Positions 43,164 to 49,884 of a stretch of 64,000 bases of DNA are shown one piece after another. The translations under genes and the position numbers were made by a program. This stretch comes from Spartobacteria bacterium (GTDB lineage Bacteria; Verrucomicrobiota; Verrucomicrobiia; Chthoniobacterales; UBA10450), in NCBI GenBank assembly GCA_003167555.1, contig PMSN01000025.1, positions 62,001-126,000 on the forward strand, in the 5' to 3' direction. Numbering within the stretch: the stretch's first letter is position 1; each line of letters starts with the position of its first letter. The notes beneath the pieces are model-generated. The model saw nothing but the letters and a program-made list of their open reading frames with translations, was not told the origin of the DNA and made no database searches.

Positions 43164-43619
43164 TTATGGACGCACCGTCATCACGCCTTTCATGCCGCCG
43201 GCGTAATGCTCGGGAAATGTGCAAAGATAATCGTAGGCCCCGGGGACACCGGGTGCGGTGAACGTCACGCTGTCCGATTCTCCCGGCCCAAGCATTTTGG
43301 TTTTGGCCAGCACGTAGAACTCTTGCTCGAACGCGATGTAGCCTCCCTCAGGATGTGAAGTCCCCGCTTCGACAAATTTCGGAGCGAAAGCCTCCTTCGC
43401 CAGCAACACCCAGTTGTGCGCCACCGCTTCTCTCGGCAACTCGCCGACATTTCTTAGCTTCACGGTCACGCTCTGTCCCGGCTTCGCGTCAAAGCTCGTT
43501 ACGCTGAACTTCATGAAATCATCACCCGTGATCTCGACGATCTTCGGCGGCGCGACAGTGCGCGAACAGCCGATGAATGGCGCAGCGAACAGCAGCAATG
43601 CGAGACTCGCGACCTTCAT
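43164..43619 (-). CDS. Azurin-like cupredoxin lipoprotein
   Basis: The ATG at 43619 (151 aa) gives the signal KVASLALLLFAAPFIGC with a lipobox cysteine. The mature part is an azurin-type cupredoxin: ITGDDFMKFSVTSFDAKPGQ, AHNWVLL with the first copper His, and YLCTFPEHYAGGMKGVM with Cys, His and Met ligands. It is a paralogue of the cupredoxin at 57618-58094 that heads the nos cluster. A periplasmic one-electron carrier; the partner is unknown. Confidence 0.9.
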   Translation of the reverse strand: MKVASLALLLFAAPFIGCSRTVAPPKIVEITGDDFMKFSVTSFDAKPGQSVTVKLRNVGELPREAVAHNWVLLAKEAFAPKFVEAGTSHPEGGYIAFEQEFYVLAKTKMLGPGESDSVTFTAPGVPGAYDYLCTFPEHYAGGMKGVMTVRP

Positions 43620-43678
43620 ACGCTCACCGATCATCGCCGGGATGTCGGAGCGAGGTCAACCCTGAGGATGGTCGATCC

Positions 43679-43702
43679 TGTAGCGGCGGTCTGTGACCGC
43701 CG
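43679..43702. repeat. Palindromic repeat unit
   Basis: TGTAG followed by CGGCGGTC, TGT, GACCGCCG: an 8-bp perfect hairpin without a U-tract. It resembles the two TGTAGGGCGT units found inside nosD at 54877-54930, suggesting a dispersed REP-like family. Confidence 0.55.
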
Positions 43703-43790
43703 AAGTCTGTTGCTTGGCATGTTGCTTCTGATTAGTTTCCCGGCGTCGTGCGCGCCCTCCCCATCAAAGCGAATCACAAACGGGTCGCTG
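43702..43790. repeat. Degenerate direct repeat, copy 1
   Basis: Shares GAAGTCTGTTGC, GGCGTCGTGCGCGC and AATCACAAACGGGT in the same order and spacing with 44547-44636. The copies flank the His-rich protein gene. Confidence 0.7.
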
Positions 43791-44425: not shown

Positions 44426-44781
44426 GCGATAGCGGCGGCCGGCGATTGCTTCTTATTTCCGACCTCCGTCCTCTGCCCTCCGCCTTCTGCCTTCTGCCTT
44501 CTGCCCGTTCGGCGTTCGGCGTTTGCTTTCCACGTTGCCCATCGCCGAAGTCTGTTGCCTTGCCCTCTCGCTTCGGATTACTTTCCTGGCGTCGTGCGCG
44601 CTCTTCCCCTTAAGCCCAATCACAAACGGGTTACTGTATGCGTGACGAGTTGAAGAATGCCCTGGAGGAATTCGCGCGCTTTGGAGCTTCAAAGGCGATG
44701 AGAAGAGCAAGGCGGCAAGCCTTTCTCGAGCATTTTTCCCGTGCGCCCGGAATAGTGCGCTATATCTGACCTGATTCTCCA
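44426..44781. other. Region upstream of the STAND-like gene
   Basis: Contains three 7-bp tandem units CCTTCTG (44483-44503), GGCGTTC repeats, the second copy of the degenerate direct repeat, and a 43-codon frame (44638-44769, MRDELKNALEEFARFG) ending 12 bp before the large gene. That short frame has GC-typical codons but no family and no clear ribosome binding site, so I do not call it a gene. Confidence 0.5.
44547..44636. repeat. Degenerate direct repeat, copy 2
   Basis: Partner of 43702-43790; same motif order, roughly four-fifths identical by eye. It ends just before the short frame upstream of the large STAND-like gene. Confidence 0.7.
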
Positions 44782-47700
44782 GTGCTAATCCCAACCAACG
44801 ACGTAGAATTGGCATTCTCTCGCGAGCCTCATCGAGGGGCATTTCCTTTGTTCTGCAATTCGCTTGTTGCACTTGAAGCTCCCCGGACGCGGACCTTTCC
44901 AATCCTGACGGCAAAAGCGGGGCCCGACGGTGGTATGGACGGCGAATGGGACGTAAGTGGGGTCGATGGTTTCGTTGCTGTGTCTATCGCGAGTGCCGGT
45001 TGGAACGTCTATCAATTTAAGACGTTGGACGTACCGACATTGGGAGCGCAGAAAGCATTCTCCGAGTTGTGCAGGCGCGTGCGCGGAGCGGTCAAGAGTG
45101 TCATTGCCAGGCAAGCGGAGCCAAAGACGCTCGCAAAATATATTCTCTTTACGAACCTACGCCTTGGCCTTGAGAGCGAGTCGAGTACGGCTAACGGACG
45201 GTCTCTCAATACTCAGCGTGCAGACTTACGTGATGAAATACTCAAAGGCACAGCGGGAGATGTTGATGTTACTATTATTGATGCCGGTCAGATTTCTGGT
45301 TTTATCGCTCGCCACCCGGCTCTTCGTATGGGCTGGTTTTCTCCGGGACAAGGAACGGCGTGGAATGAAATGCAGCAGCGGGCGCGCCGATTAAGTAGAG
45401 TGGACGTTCCCCTCATCGGTCGCGATGCAGAATTGGCCGATGTTCAAGGGTGGCTCGGTGATCCTGACGTGCGTGTGATTGCGGTGAGCGGCCCAAACAG
45501 TGTGGGCAAAACGCGCCTAGTAATTGAAGCGACCGAGCCGTATGCACCAGTCACGTTCTTTGCCGAGGACGTCCACGCCTTAGCGCATGACGGCGTCCGC
45601 GTATATGCAACCGCCGACCAATTTGTGGTGCTCGTTGTTGAAGATCTGCCCGTTGACATGGTAAAGCGACTTGCGGAGCAAGCCCTCGGTTGTGAGAAGC
45701 CGATTAAGCTAATCATAACCCTCCCGTCTCCAGAGCACGCTCCCATCATACGCCTGGGTAATGATTCGGCCGTCAAACCTCGTCAGATCCCGCGACTGCC
45801 AAAAGACGCATCGACGAGACTTGTCGAATCTGTTGATTCTGATCTCGAACAGCGATTACGCGATTGGATCGTACAACAGGCGGGCGGCATACCGGGAGTG
45901 CTTGTCGCGGCTGCGTTAGTCGGCGAGGAGCTTCATCGCGAATCAGGGTCTTTGCGCAAGCAGCTCTCTCAAAAATTCAGCCAAAGCTTGGAAGACAAGG
46001 CGGGCAAGGACGCGCTGCCCCTCCTTCAGGCACTGTCTCCTTTGGTTTATGTACGAGTTGGTGGAGAATCGTCTGAGTTGCCAGTTCTGCTATCCCATAT
46101 AGCACCTGAGATACAGGTGCCCAGCGTTCTCCGGCGACTGGGCGAATTCGAAGCGCTCGGGTTTCTGCGGAGGCAAGGTGAGTATGTGGCCGTCGTGCCT
46201 CCGATGTTTGCCGCCGGACTGTTTCACGATCTTGCACATGACAATCCGTCCCTACCGGAACAACTGATGGCCAGCCTTGACCTCGCTGGTCGTAAGCGAT
46301 TGCTGGAACGACTGGTCACGGTCGAGCTCTCTCACGCGACGCCATTCACGTCGTTCGTATTTGGTCCCGGAGGTCCGTTTGGTGATACGGAACGCTTTAG
46401 TGGAAACCTTGAACTGCTCGACTACTTGGCGCGTGCCCTTCCGGTGGAGACAGCACGATTTCTTCGGCAACAGCTAGATGAGATCTGGCGTGATGTTGTC
46501 CAGCGAGGACAAAACGGCATGGAACGCCTGCTCGCGGCCATTAACGAGTTGATAGACGAGCCAGCAACGACCGCCTCCGCGTTCTCTATCCTAACAGATT
46601 TGGCAACGCGTGAAGCGTTGGAATCGGATGGGACCGCTGCCGCTAACGACTTTACGGAATGTTTTGTCTATTGGTATCCGCGCTCAATCTCTTATCAAGA
46701 ACGTGAGGCAGCACTGGAGCCGATGCTCACAGCTTCTGACCTCACGCTGCGAAAACTCGGTCTGAAGGCAATCATAACCGCCACGAATCCGCCGGACACT
46801 CTAGGCGGGCGCTCAGTAACTGTCCGCCGACTGGGTAGCAGGCCGCGTTACGGAACATGGAAAGACTGCTGGGATTTTTTGCTTAGAATGGTCCGTCGCC
46901 GCCTCACGATGTGCCTTGAAAATGAGCCCGAGCTCCGGGCTATGGCGCTTGATAAACTACCGAACGCGATTTCGAGATTATCGGGACATTTACGGGTTGA
47001 AGATGCGATGCAAATTGTTCGCGATATTTCGGAGCAGTATTTTCGAGGAAATGTTCAGCTTGATCCTCTCGCGCTACGCGAAAATGTGAAATGGCTGCGG
47101 GGCTTCTATGAACGAAGCAGAGGGAACTCGGGACAGGAAAAATGGCAGGAGGGATGGGCTAAGACTATCGAGGAGCTGGATGCGTTGCTGACCCGTCTTG
47201 AGAACGGCACCTTCGATCATCGGCTGAGATTGGCGATTGGGCGCACTTTCGAACACGGTGATGTGGTGTTCGAAGATCGTAAATTATACCAATACCAAGT
47301 TCGGATTCTGCAACTTGCCCGCGAAGCTTGCCGCGAGCCTCAAATCATGAGCAATGCCACGTGGGAACTTCTCAGTGACAAGGAAGCCTTGAACCGTGGC
47401 GACTTTGCCTTTTTTCTCGGTGAGAATGATGAGCAGCATCAACATTTTCAGGCAATGCTTGCGCGGGCCGTCGACTTTCAATGGTCTAGGCTACTAGGGA
47501 TTTATCTATCGGGAGCTATGAAGTCGATGGCTTCGTGGGTAGAGGCCACGCTGGATGAGATGCTCATCTCTCCCACAGCGCCGAAAAGCTCGTTGCTTAT
47601 TGCGATTTGCGGAATTGGTCCGACGGAGGGGAACCGCGCGCGCCTGAAGCAATTGCTTCTTAACCATTCTGTATCTGCGGACGAAGTTGCCAACGCCTTT

Positions 47701-48543
47701 TCGTACGGACGCTGGCTTGATGGCTTGCCCATCGAAGAAGTGCGAGATGTTCTGAAGTTCATCCTGTCAGAACCGGATCATGAGGTGGCTCTGTTGAACG
47801 TCTCATCTCTATATCTCCACCACCAAAAGCCACTTCCTCGCGAACTCTTTGACATCGTTAGGCCTGTGCTCAACGCACCCATCCATGCTCGGATGAACTC
47901 GACATACGAGCTCGATCAGGTAGCGACAGGACTCGCGCGAACTGATTTGGAAGCGGGTCTTGAACTCCTTCGGGAAGCGATCCGGCGTCTGTCTGATGCA
48001 AAATCGCGGGTTTGGTGGATGGGTTGGAATCCTTTTGAAAGCTACGGCACACGGGACTTCTGGGAATACCTACGCACACAGTCACCGCAATGCGCATACG
48101 AAATACTCGGCGCATGGGACGTCAAGTCCCCCGGGCCGGACTTACAAGACCATGGTCAACGTTATTTGCTCGATCTCTCGGCACACCAATCGGTTTTGGT
48201 GAATATCGCGCGAACCAATCGGAATGCGGCCTGCATCTTTGCTAAGTGCATGCCGTCTGTCCAGCCCGGCTTCTTCCAGTTCGCTTATGAGTTGATCGAG
48301 ATATATCCGGACGACAATGGCGTCGTTGGCGCCCTCAATTCTGCCCTCATCCCGACGAGTGGGTGGGGTTATGAGTACGATTGGCTGACGAAGGCCAGCG
48401 AAACCGTGCAGGCTGAACTAAAGGTAACGTCTTTGTCCCCGGCGGCACGCGGGTGGCTCGAGTCACTGCAGGAGGTTATCTTAATGCGGCGCTCCGAATC
48501 GCGTCGCGATTTCGGATCATCCGAGCCGTCATTTTTGGATTAA
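44782..48543 (+). CDS. Large STAND-like NTPase with N-terminal Mrr-like nuclease domain, candidate anti-phage protein
   Basis: The 1253-aa product starts at GTG 44782; an in-frame TGA at 44767 rules out a longer form. Residues about 20-180 contain AGPDGGMDGEWD (Asp49, Asp53) and NVYQFKT (Gln78, Lys80), the D..QxK core of Mrr-type PD-(D/E)xK nucleases. Residues about 205-450 form a P-loop module: LIGRDAEL, Walker A SGPNSVGKT (Lys243), Walker B FVVLVVEDLP, then GGIPGVLVAAALVGEEL as in STAND proteins. The remaining 800 residues look all-helical, repeat-like, and could be the sensor. No partner gene is adjacent. Codon use is less GC-biased than its neighbours, suggesting transfer. Confidence 0.75.
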   Translation: MLIPTNDVELAFSREPHRGAFPLFCNSLVALEAPRTRTFPILTAKAGPDGGMDGEWDVSGVDGFVAVSIASAGWNVYQFKTLDVPTLGAQKAFSELCRRVRGAVKSVIARQAEPKTLAKYILFTNLRLGLESESSTANGRSLNTQRADLRDEILKGTAGDVDVTIIDAGQISGFIARHPALRMGWFSPGQGTAWNEMQQRARRLSRVDVPLIGRDAELADVQGWLGDPDVRVIAVSGPNSVGKTRLVIEATEPYAPVTFFAEDVHALAHDGVRVYATADQFVVLVVEDLPVDMVKRLAEQALGCEKPIKLIITLPSPEHAPIIRLGNDSAVKPRQIPRLPKDASTRLVESVDSDLEQRLRDWIVQQAGGIPGVLVAAALVGEELHRESGSLRKQLSQKFSQSLEDKAGKDALPLLQALSPLVYVRVGGESSELPVLLSHIAPEIQVPSVLRRLGEFEALGFLRRQGEYVAVVPPMFAAGLFHDLAHDNPSLPEQLMASLDLAGRKRLLERLVTVELSHATPFTSFVFGPGGPFGDTERFSGNLELLDYLARALPVETARFLRQQLDEIWRDVVQRGQNGMERLLAAINELIDEPATTASAFSILTDLATREALESDGTAAANDFTECFVYWYPRSISYQEREAALEPMLTASDLTLRKLGLKAIITATNPPDTLGGRSVTVRRLGSRPRYGTWKDCWDFLLRMVRRRLTMCLENEPELRAMALDKLPNAISRLSGHLRVEDAMQIVRDISEQYFRGNVQLDPLALRENVKWLRGFYERSRGNSGQEKWQEGWAKTIEELDALLTRLENGTFDHRLRLAIGRTFEHGDVVFEDRKLYQYQVRILQLAREACREPQIMSNATWELLSDKEALNRGDFAFFLGENDEQHQHFQAMLARAVDFQWSRLLGIYLSGAMKSMASWVEATLDEMLISPTAPKSSLLIAICGIGPTEGNRARLKQLLLNHSVSADEVANAFSYGRWLDGLPIEEVRDVLKFILSEPDHEVALLNVSSLYLHHQKPLPRELFDIVRPVLNAPIHARMNSTYELDQVATGLARTDLEAGLELLREAIRRLSDAKSRVWWMGWNPFESYGTRDFWEYLRTQSPQCAYEILGAWDVKSPGPDLQDHGQRYLLDLSAHQSVLVNIARTNRNAACIFAKCMPSVQPGFFQFAYELIEIYPDDNGVVGALNSALIPTSGWGYEYDWLTKASETVQAELKVTSLSPAARGWLESLQEVILMRRSESRRDFGSSEPSFLD

Positions 48544-48643: not shown

Positions 48644-49699
48644 TCAGGGACGGATCGCGACCTTTAGGACACCGTCGCGGCGGGAGCCGAAGAGATCGTA
48701 GGCTTCAACGATTTGATCGAGCTTGAAACTATGGGTCAGGAGCGGGGTGGGATCGAAACGCTTTGATTGCACCATCGACATCAGGCGGCGCATCCGTTCT
48801 TTGCCGCCGGGACAGAGCGTGGTGACGATTTTGTAGTCGCCGATGCCGGCCGCGAACGCGTCGTAGGGGACCTGAAGTTTTCCCGAGTAAACGCCGAGGC
48901 TGCTCAACGTGCCGCCGGCACGCAAACTCCGCAGAGCATTCTCGAAGGTCTCCTGCAGGCCGAGCGACTCAATGGCCACGTCAGCGCCGCCGCCAGTGAG
49001 TTTTCTTACTTCCGCGACAACGTCGCACTGCTTCGGATCGAGCACGACATCCGCACCCATTTGTTTCGACATTTTCATTCGGACGGGGTCGCCGTCGACG
49101 GCAATAATGAACGACGCGCCCATTAATTTTGCGCCAGCCGTCGCACAAAGTCCGATGGGGCCTTGCGCAAGAACGACCACCGTATCCCCGATGCGAATGT
49201 TGCCGGACTCCGCGCCGCTGAAGCCGGTCGAGGCGATGTCGGCGAGGAGCACGACTTGTTCGTCGCTCAATTCATCCGGAATCTTCGCGAGGTTCGCCTG
49301 TGCGTTCGGCACGAGAAGATATTCCGCCTGCGCGCCATTGATCGTATTGCCGAAACGCCAGCCGCCGATCGCTTCTACGCCTTCGCCGTGGCCGCATTGC
49401 GACCATTGCGCCGACAAACACGCGCGACACTGTCCGCACGGTGTGATCGCGCCGACGAGCACACGATCGCCAATCGCGTAGCCGGTGACGCCTTCGCCGA
49501 GTTCTTCGATCACACCGACCGGCTCGTGACCGATCACGAGACCGGGCTTCACGGCGTATTCTCCGCGCAGAATGTGAAGGTCGGTGCCGCAGATTGTCGT
49601 GAGGGTGATGCGAATCACGGCTTCGCCCGCGCCGGCGCTTGGCCGCGGAACTTCTTCGATCCGAATATCATTCGGTCCGTGAAAAACGGTCGCTCGCAT
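48644..49699 (-). CDS. Zinc-dependent alcohol dehydrogenase (MDR family)
   Basis: The family start is MRATVFHGPNDIRIEEVPRP at ATG 49699 (351 aa); in-frame ATGs at 49792 and 49813 would add a non-conserved tail. TICGTDLHILRG holds the catalytic cysteine, GHEPVGVIEELG the histidine, and CGQCRACLSAQWSQC the structural zinc lobe (three clear Cys plus one). VVLAQGPIGLCATAGAKLMGA binds NAD(P). It oxidises or reduces a small alcohol/aldehyde; substrate unknown. Confidence 0.88.
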   Translation of the reverse strand: MRATVFHGPNDIRIEEVPRPSAGAGEAVIRITLTTICGTDLHILRGEYAVKPGLVIGHEPVGVIEELGEGVTGYAIGDRVLVGAITPCGQCRACLSAQWSQCGHGEGVEAIGGWRFGNTINGAQAEYLLVPNAQANLAKIPDELSDEQVVLLADIASTGFSGAESGNIRIGDTVVVLAQGPIGLCATAGAKLMGASFIIAVDGDPVRMKMSKQMGADVVLDPKQCDVVAEVRKLTGGGADVAIESLGLQETFENALRSLRAGGTLSSLGVYSGKLQVPYDAFAAGIGDYKIVTTLCPGGKERMRRLMSMVQSKRFDPTPLLTHSFKLDQIVEAYDLFGSRRDGVLKVAIRP

Positions 49700-49884
49700 G
49701 GTGCCGCGTGCATTTGCCGATGACTGCAATCTGGTAGGGCGAGACTCTGTCGAGCCGGGGTCACCGCGGTTGGAATCAATTGCCGTTTTCATGCACCCAG
49801 GATTCACGAGCACCGAGATGCGTGCTCCGCAGTAATTGCGATTTAGCGCGCGTTTTTTGCGTGCTTGTTTGTCTCGCCCGCGTG

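Follow-up and report, generated by a model that had tools for sequence, protein, structure and literature searches.

We describe a single large bacterial protein in which a probable DNA-cutting domain is joined to a molecular switch and, behind it, a long helical sensor; known anti-phage alarm proteins are built in this way. The protein is encoded in the window analyzed here, a 64,000-nucleotide stretch of contig C12 in the 4.2-Mb genome of a Spartobacteria bacterium, by a 1253-aa ORF with a GTG start (44782–48543; this and all features of the protein given below lie on the + strand), whose product comprises a PD-(D/E)xK-like domain, a STAND NTPase and a helical solenoid. It and its relatives are best classed as a small family of nuclease-STAND proteins, as yet undescribed but of the already known Avs/bNACHT-like kind. 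We consider it likely that the protein is a stand-alone antiviral STAND sensor of this kind that degrades DNA on sensing a phage product; its nuclease activity, oligomerization, trigger and anti-phage role are what we infer from the features described below.

Searches of a phylum sample (Verrucomicrobiota, 388 genomes) recovered two full-length homologs in Opitutaceae, namely one in Opitutaceae bacterium EW11 (G236; QAYY01000014, L008:9055-12792:+, 1245 aa, 32% identity) and one in a second genome of the family (G182; L007:7988-11821:-, 1277 aa, 29% identity). In a third Opitutaceae copy, in UBA6669 (DKKJ01000092, L018), 2-bp N gaps in the assembly interrupt the frame. That such long frames stay intact while identity falls to about 30% shows selection at the protein level, so 44782–48543 is a genuine gene and not a chance ORF. 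The open frame as a whole spans 1257 aa, with just four further open codons 5′ of the GTG, and the alignment places the start of the 1253-aa ORF at the same point as in the two complete homologs. In profile searches the full protein was present in three of the 388 phylum-sample genomes, with further matches confined to the vicinity of the P-loop, and the only carrier among 213 genomes of the window's own order was the window's own genome. A single-sequence query against genome contigs recovered no close relatives and a three-row alignment query recovered two; no copies were found among plasmids and viral contigs, nor phage copies where these were searched. The family is rare and patchy.

Two more distant verrucomicrobial STANDs, each a separate protein (L042:3599-7516:+, 1306 aa; L043:1759-5766:-, 1336 aa), share with the window protein a PD-(D/E)xK-like N-terminus followed by an nSTAND5 NTPase and a long C-terminus. 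Identity is only 19–22% over the N-terminal and NTPase parts, however, and the C-terminal sensors do not align; hence, the order of nuclease, STAND module and long C-terminus recurs in the phylum with different sensors. The second of these (L043:1759-5766, Mrr_cat_2-nSTAND5), which comes from the order of the window genome, was itself without a PADLOC match at E 0.01.

The central region (aa 205–400; 45394–45981) is, as judged from its sequence, a STAND-like NTPase of the AAA_16/nSTAND5 kind. Pfam searches gave an AAA_16 match in the window protein (5.7e-5, aa 210–347), and nSTAND_NTPase5 was matched in the G182 homolog (0.0023) and in the distant proteins of the same layout (6e-8 and 2e-5), the homolog and distant-protein matches lying below the gathering score. 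The Walker A motif (GPNSVGKT, aa 237–244; 45490–45513) is conserved in the alignment as G237-x4-G242-K243-T244; an invariant Walker B-like E287-D288 (45640–45645) follows a hydrophobic strand, and the GGIP motif (aa 368–371; 45883–45894) of the STAND helical subdomain has G368, G369 and P371 invariant in the homologs, with P371 also present in both distant STANDs. The region that follows the NTPase (45994–46251), probably the winged-helix part of the STAND module, ends in a VxPPxFA motif; the profile alignment to L043 (hmm 210–490) runs through it, and G460, V471 and P473 are invariant in five proteins. A STAND NTPase is recognized by Walker A and B motifs and a GxP-type helical subdomain, with a winged helix and a repeat domain behind them; the window protein belongs to this class by its motifs and by weak-to-moderate profile scores. 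An earlier note made from the letters of the window had pointed to a P-loop with a GGxP-type helical motif and to a STAND-type NTPase; the motifs are present and conserved, and their invariance along with the AAA_16 and nSTAND_NTPase5 matches bears out the class assignment.

We interpret the N-terminal region (aa 1–190; 44782–45351) as a putative nuclease domain of the PD-(D/E)xK type, a call made at the level of motifs and predicted element order. Across the complete homologs, which are about 30% identical, G47, D49, G50, D53, G54 and W56 are invariant together with Q78-F79-K80, giving the pattern G-x-D49-G-x-x-D53-G-x-W56 ... Q78-F-K80 in all complete copies. Comparison with a collected set of Mrr domains showed these motifs to resemble the Mrr motif SGDGG(I/V)DG...(Y/V)xQAK: the D49-G-G-M-D53 codons (44926–44940) match the Mrr-type GDGGxD element in the family alignments, and Q78-F79-K80 (45013–45021), invariant in all three complete copies and removed from the L018 copy by an assembly gap, its QxK part. 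The Asp49, Gln78 and Lys80 singled out in the earlier note are all invariant; nonetheless, D53, which is equally invariant, is the better candidate for the catalytic aspartate owing to where it falls within the GDGG(I/V)D motif of Mrr-type domains. Predicted elements (helix 20–32, strands 64–71 and 74–81, helix 89–110, strand 118–124, helix 142–154, strand 161–167) follow an alpha-beta-beta-alpha-beta-alpha-beta order that fits the PD-(D/E)xK core, in a low-confidence AlphaFold model (pLDDT ~30–60) built from five alignment rows and too poor to prove a nuclease fold. Pfam gave no match in this domain, and HMM and profile-profile comparisons with about 25 collected Mrr domains placed the window family at shuffle level, which is not significant. 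In these same comparisons L043 scored well, unlike the window family; its N-terminus (DDGVD...FQCK) also matched Mrr_cat_2 at 1.4e-4, just above the cut-off, and that of L042 is likewise nuclease-like (GPDSGLD...YQAK). Given the level of the profile scores and the low-confidence fold model, both the nuclease and the "Mrr" calls are motif-based; of the Mrr-like nuclease claimed earlier, the invariant PD-(D/E)xK-type residues stand and significant Mrr homology does not.

The remaining ~740 residues (aa 517–1253; 46330–48543) form a putative sensor, for which AlphaFold2 returned a confident all-alpha solenoid of helical repeats (pLDDT 80.6), in agreement with the long helical C-terminus anticipated before; structure prediction, which had been proposed as a check, gave a firm picture of this part and a model of low confidence for the N-terminal domain. 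Foldseek matches to the solenoid were HEAT-type solenoids with TMq of at most 0.41, a general likeness only. We tentatively suggest, at somewhat less than even likelihood, that this solenoid could constitute a sensor family of a new sort, with no sequence relationship to the sensors of Avs1-5 and NACHT proteins and directed at a phage product new as a STAND trigger, and that, combined with the diverged nuclease, it could define a new Avs-like type, so far found in Verrucomicrobiota only.

Avs proteins combine an N-terminal nuclease, a central STAND NTPase and a long helical C-terminal sensor in a single effector gene. The window protein, with its putative nuclease, shares this overall layout and single-gene organization with Avs4 and Avs3, which were also the two top PDB matches of the N-part model in Foldseek (Avs4 8dgf, E 2.9e-4; Avs3 8dgc, 1.1e-3; followed by the STAND 6mfv, 1.9e-3; model pLDDT 48), though at 1534 and 2028 residues both are longer than its 1253. 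As the model of this part is poor, the ranking backs the STAND class and is no proof of a nuclease, and since the TM-scores are low (TMq 0.18 or less for the Avs4 and Avs3 matches), we make no claim of a sensor ancestry shared with Avs. PADLOC, searched at E up to 10, returned a sole match, PD-Lambda-4_A, and none of the Avs models, and a PDB sequence search found no Avs chain; the parallel to Avs drawn in the earlier note therefore holds for the overall layout and not for family membership by sequence.

In terms of domain order, the window protein is also comparable to bNACHT25 and bNACHT32 (clade 6), which have a PD-(D/E)XK-NACHT-helical architecture and in which phage protection, like the DNA degradation set off by infection, depends on the nuclease residue D48 (PMC12169576): a PD-(D/E)XK DNase-type domain, a STAND-class NTPase and a helical C-terminus are joined in one gene. 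The window NTPase is, however, closer to AAA_16/nSTAND5 than to NACHT, and Pfam yielded no NACHT match in the window protein at E up to 10. PD-lambda-4, for which a P-loop NTPase is listed (PMC10952713), is of similar length, and its PD-Lambda-4_A model aligned weakly but collinearly with part of the helical region (aa 582–1016 to 595–1032 of 1283, E 3.9e-6); unlike this system, which has a second gene, B, beside the first, the window gene is solitary, and its N-terminal and NTPase regions were without a match. We rejected PD-Lambda-4_A as the true family, the match amounting to 22.8 bits over the helical part of the window copy only, with neither of the two homologs matching.

The window gene lies between a convergent alcohol dehydrogenase (ADH) gene downstream (48644–49813, −) and, upstream, a plastocyanin-type gene (43164–43634, −), a copper-type P-ATPase and a small ORF. 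As the earlier note had it, the gene is solitary, with no partner among these metabolic and copper genes, and the locus is not a defense island. The lower GC noted there is likewise evident: the gene has a GC of 0.544 and a GC3 of 0.557, the lowest of 17 ORFs compared, the 16 others in the window ranging from 0.635 to 0.774, and this aberrant GC3 suggests that the gene was acquired. The EW11 homolog is located within ~9 kb of genes for a 1487-aa STAND-like protein, an SLFN_AlbA_2 protein, a short pAgo and a TIR/SEFIR-APAZ-type protein, and its locus is a defense island. The L007 copy adjoins ribonucleotide reductase genes outside any such island, and the L018 copy is near a weakly CARF-nuclease-like gene.

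On the antiviral reading, the protein would rest as an inactive monomer until the C-terminal solenoid (~aa 517–1253) recognizes a phage product or some change that the phage induces. Recognition would allow nucleotide exchange or hydrolysis in the STAND NTPase (aa 205–490) and oligomerization, and this in turn would bring the N-terminal PD-(D/E)xK domains (aa 1–190; D53, Q78, K80) together to cut DNA, so that phage replication is stopped or the infected cell killed. Favoring such a role are the motifs invariant at 29–32% identity, the NTPase class, the Foldseek ranking of Avs4, Avs3 and 6mfv for the N-part, the solenoid, the recurrence of the layout, the EW11 defense island, the patchiness, the GC3 and the bNACHT25/32 parallel; weighing against it are the lack of a significant nuclease-family match, the poor N-terminal model, the lack of a PADLOC Avs match, the position of the window and L007 copies outside defense islands and the lack of phage, plasmid or viral-contig copies where these were searched.

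We weighed three other interpretations. The N-terminal domain might be a catalytically inactive REase-like domain that binds nucleic acid or protein, with the STAND module acting by recruitment or conformational signaling; its divergence beyond the reach of Pfam would accord with this, as would the existence of NACHT-associated inactive REase families (Pfam NA-iREase) and the appearance of PF22722 for E. coli Mrr. Yet D49, D53, Q78 and K80, residues of a kind usually lost in inactive domains, are invariant at ~30% identity, and we regard an inactive domain as unlikely. Rather improbable, too, is a nucleotide-dependent, type IV-like restriction enzyme that recognizes modified or foreign DNA directly, instead of a phage protein, and uses the NTPase as motor or switch: despite the Mrr-type motif beside an NTPase and the stand-alone gene without a methylase, the NTPase is AAA_16/nSTAND5-like rather than a helicase or McrB GTPase, a helical solenoid, the usual STAND sensor part, makes up the C-terminal 740 residues, and no DNA-recognition domain was found by Pfam.

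We give very little credence to a housekeeping signal protein, be it a transcription regulator of the MalT/LuxR STAND type or another. The weak NCBIfam match to AbsR2 (0.0061) that could hint at one is around the P-loop and limited to the NTPase, neither Pfam nor NCBIfam detected an HTH domain, and the invariant N-terminal QxK-type motif, the patchy distribution and the solitary location all point away from it. If the antiviral reading is right, the protein would add an extra STAND family from a phylum with little tested anti-phage biology, its sensor may reveal a new phage trigger, and it would offer an example of varied nuclease and sensor parts combined around one switch; the general picture of STAND immunity would be unchanged.

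Several further observations concern the neighborhoods of these genes. In Opitutaceae EW11, L008:14648-17699 encodes a short prokaryotic Argonaute (E 2e-141) and an adjacent TIR/SEFIR-APAZ-like partner, and the divergent 1487-aa protein at L008:4633-9096, which has a weak nSTAND_NTPase5 match and no PADLOC match, possibly represents a second undescribed STAND family. In the window genome, the ADH gene (48644–49813) is 90% identical to a paralogue on contig C6; in its best match within the genus, the gene itself is common to both and the surroundings are not, and the neighboring Cu-ATPase had no match at E 1e-100 in seven other species of the genus. The toxin-gene relic that had been suspected upstream was not borne out, as three peptides from the upstream frames had no NCBIfam toxin match. 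The upstream repeats, taken earlier as a sign of an accessory region, are real: a palindromic REP-like element of ~26–28 bp (TGTAGCGGCGGTCTGTGACCGCCG) is present in one copy at 43676–43703. A query holding this element gave 61 matches in the genome, many in inverted pairs 15–40 bp apart, and with such a genome-wide occurrence it is no marker of an accessory region. Finally, the two copies of a local direct repeat of ~90 bp (~80% identical; 43698–43786 and 44543–44636), the only ones in the genome, are probably the remnants of one duplicated segment.
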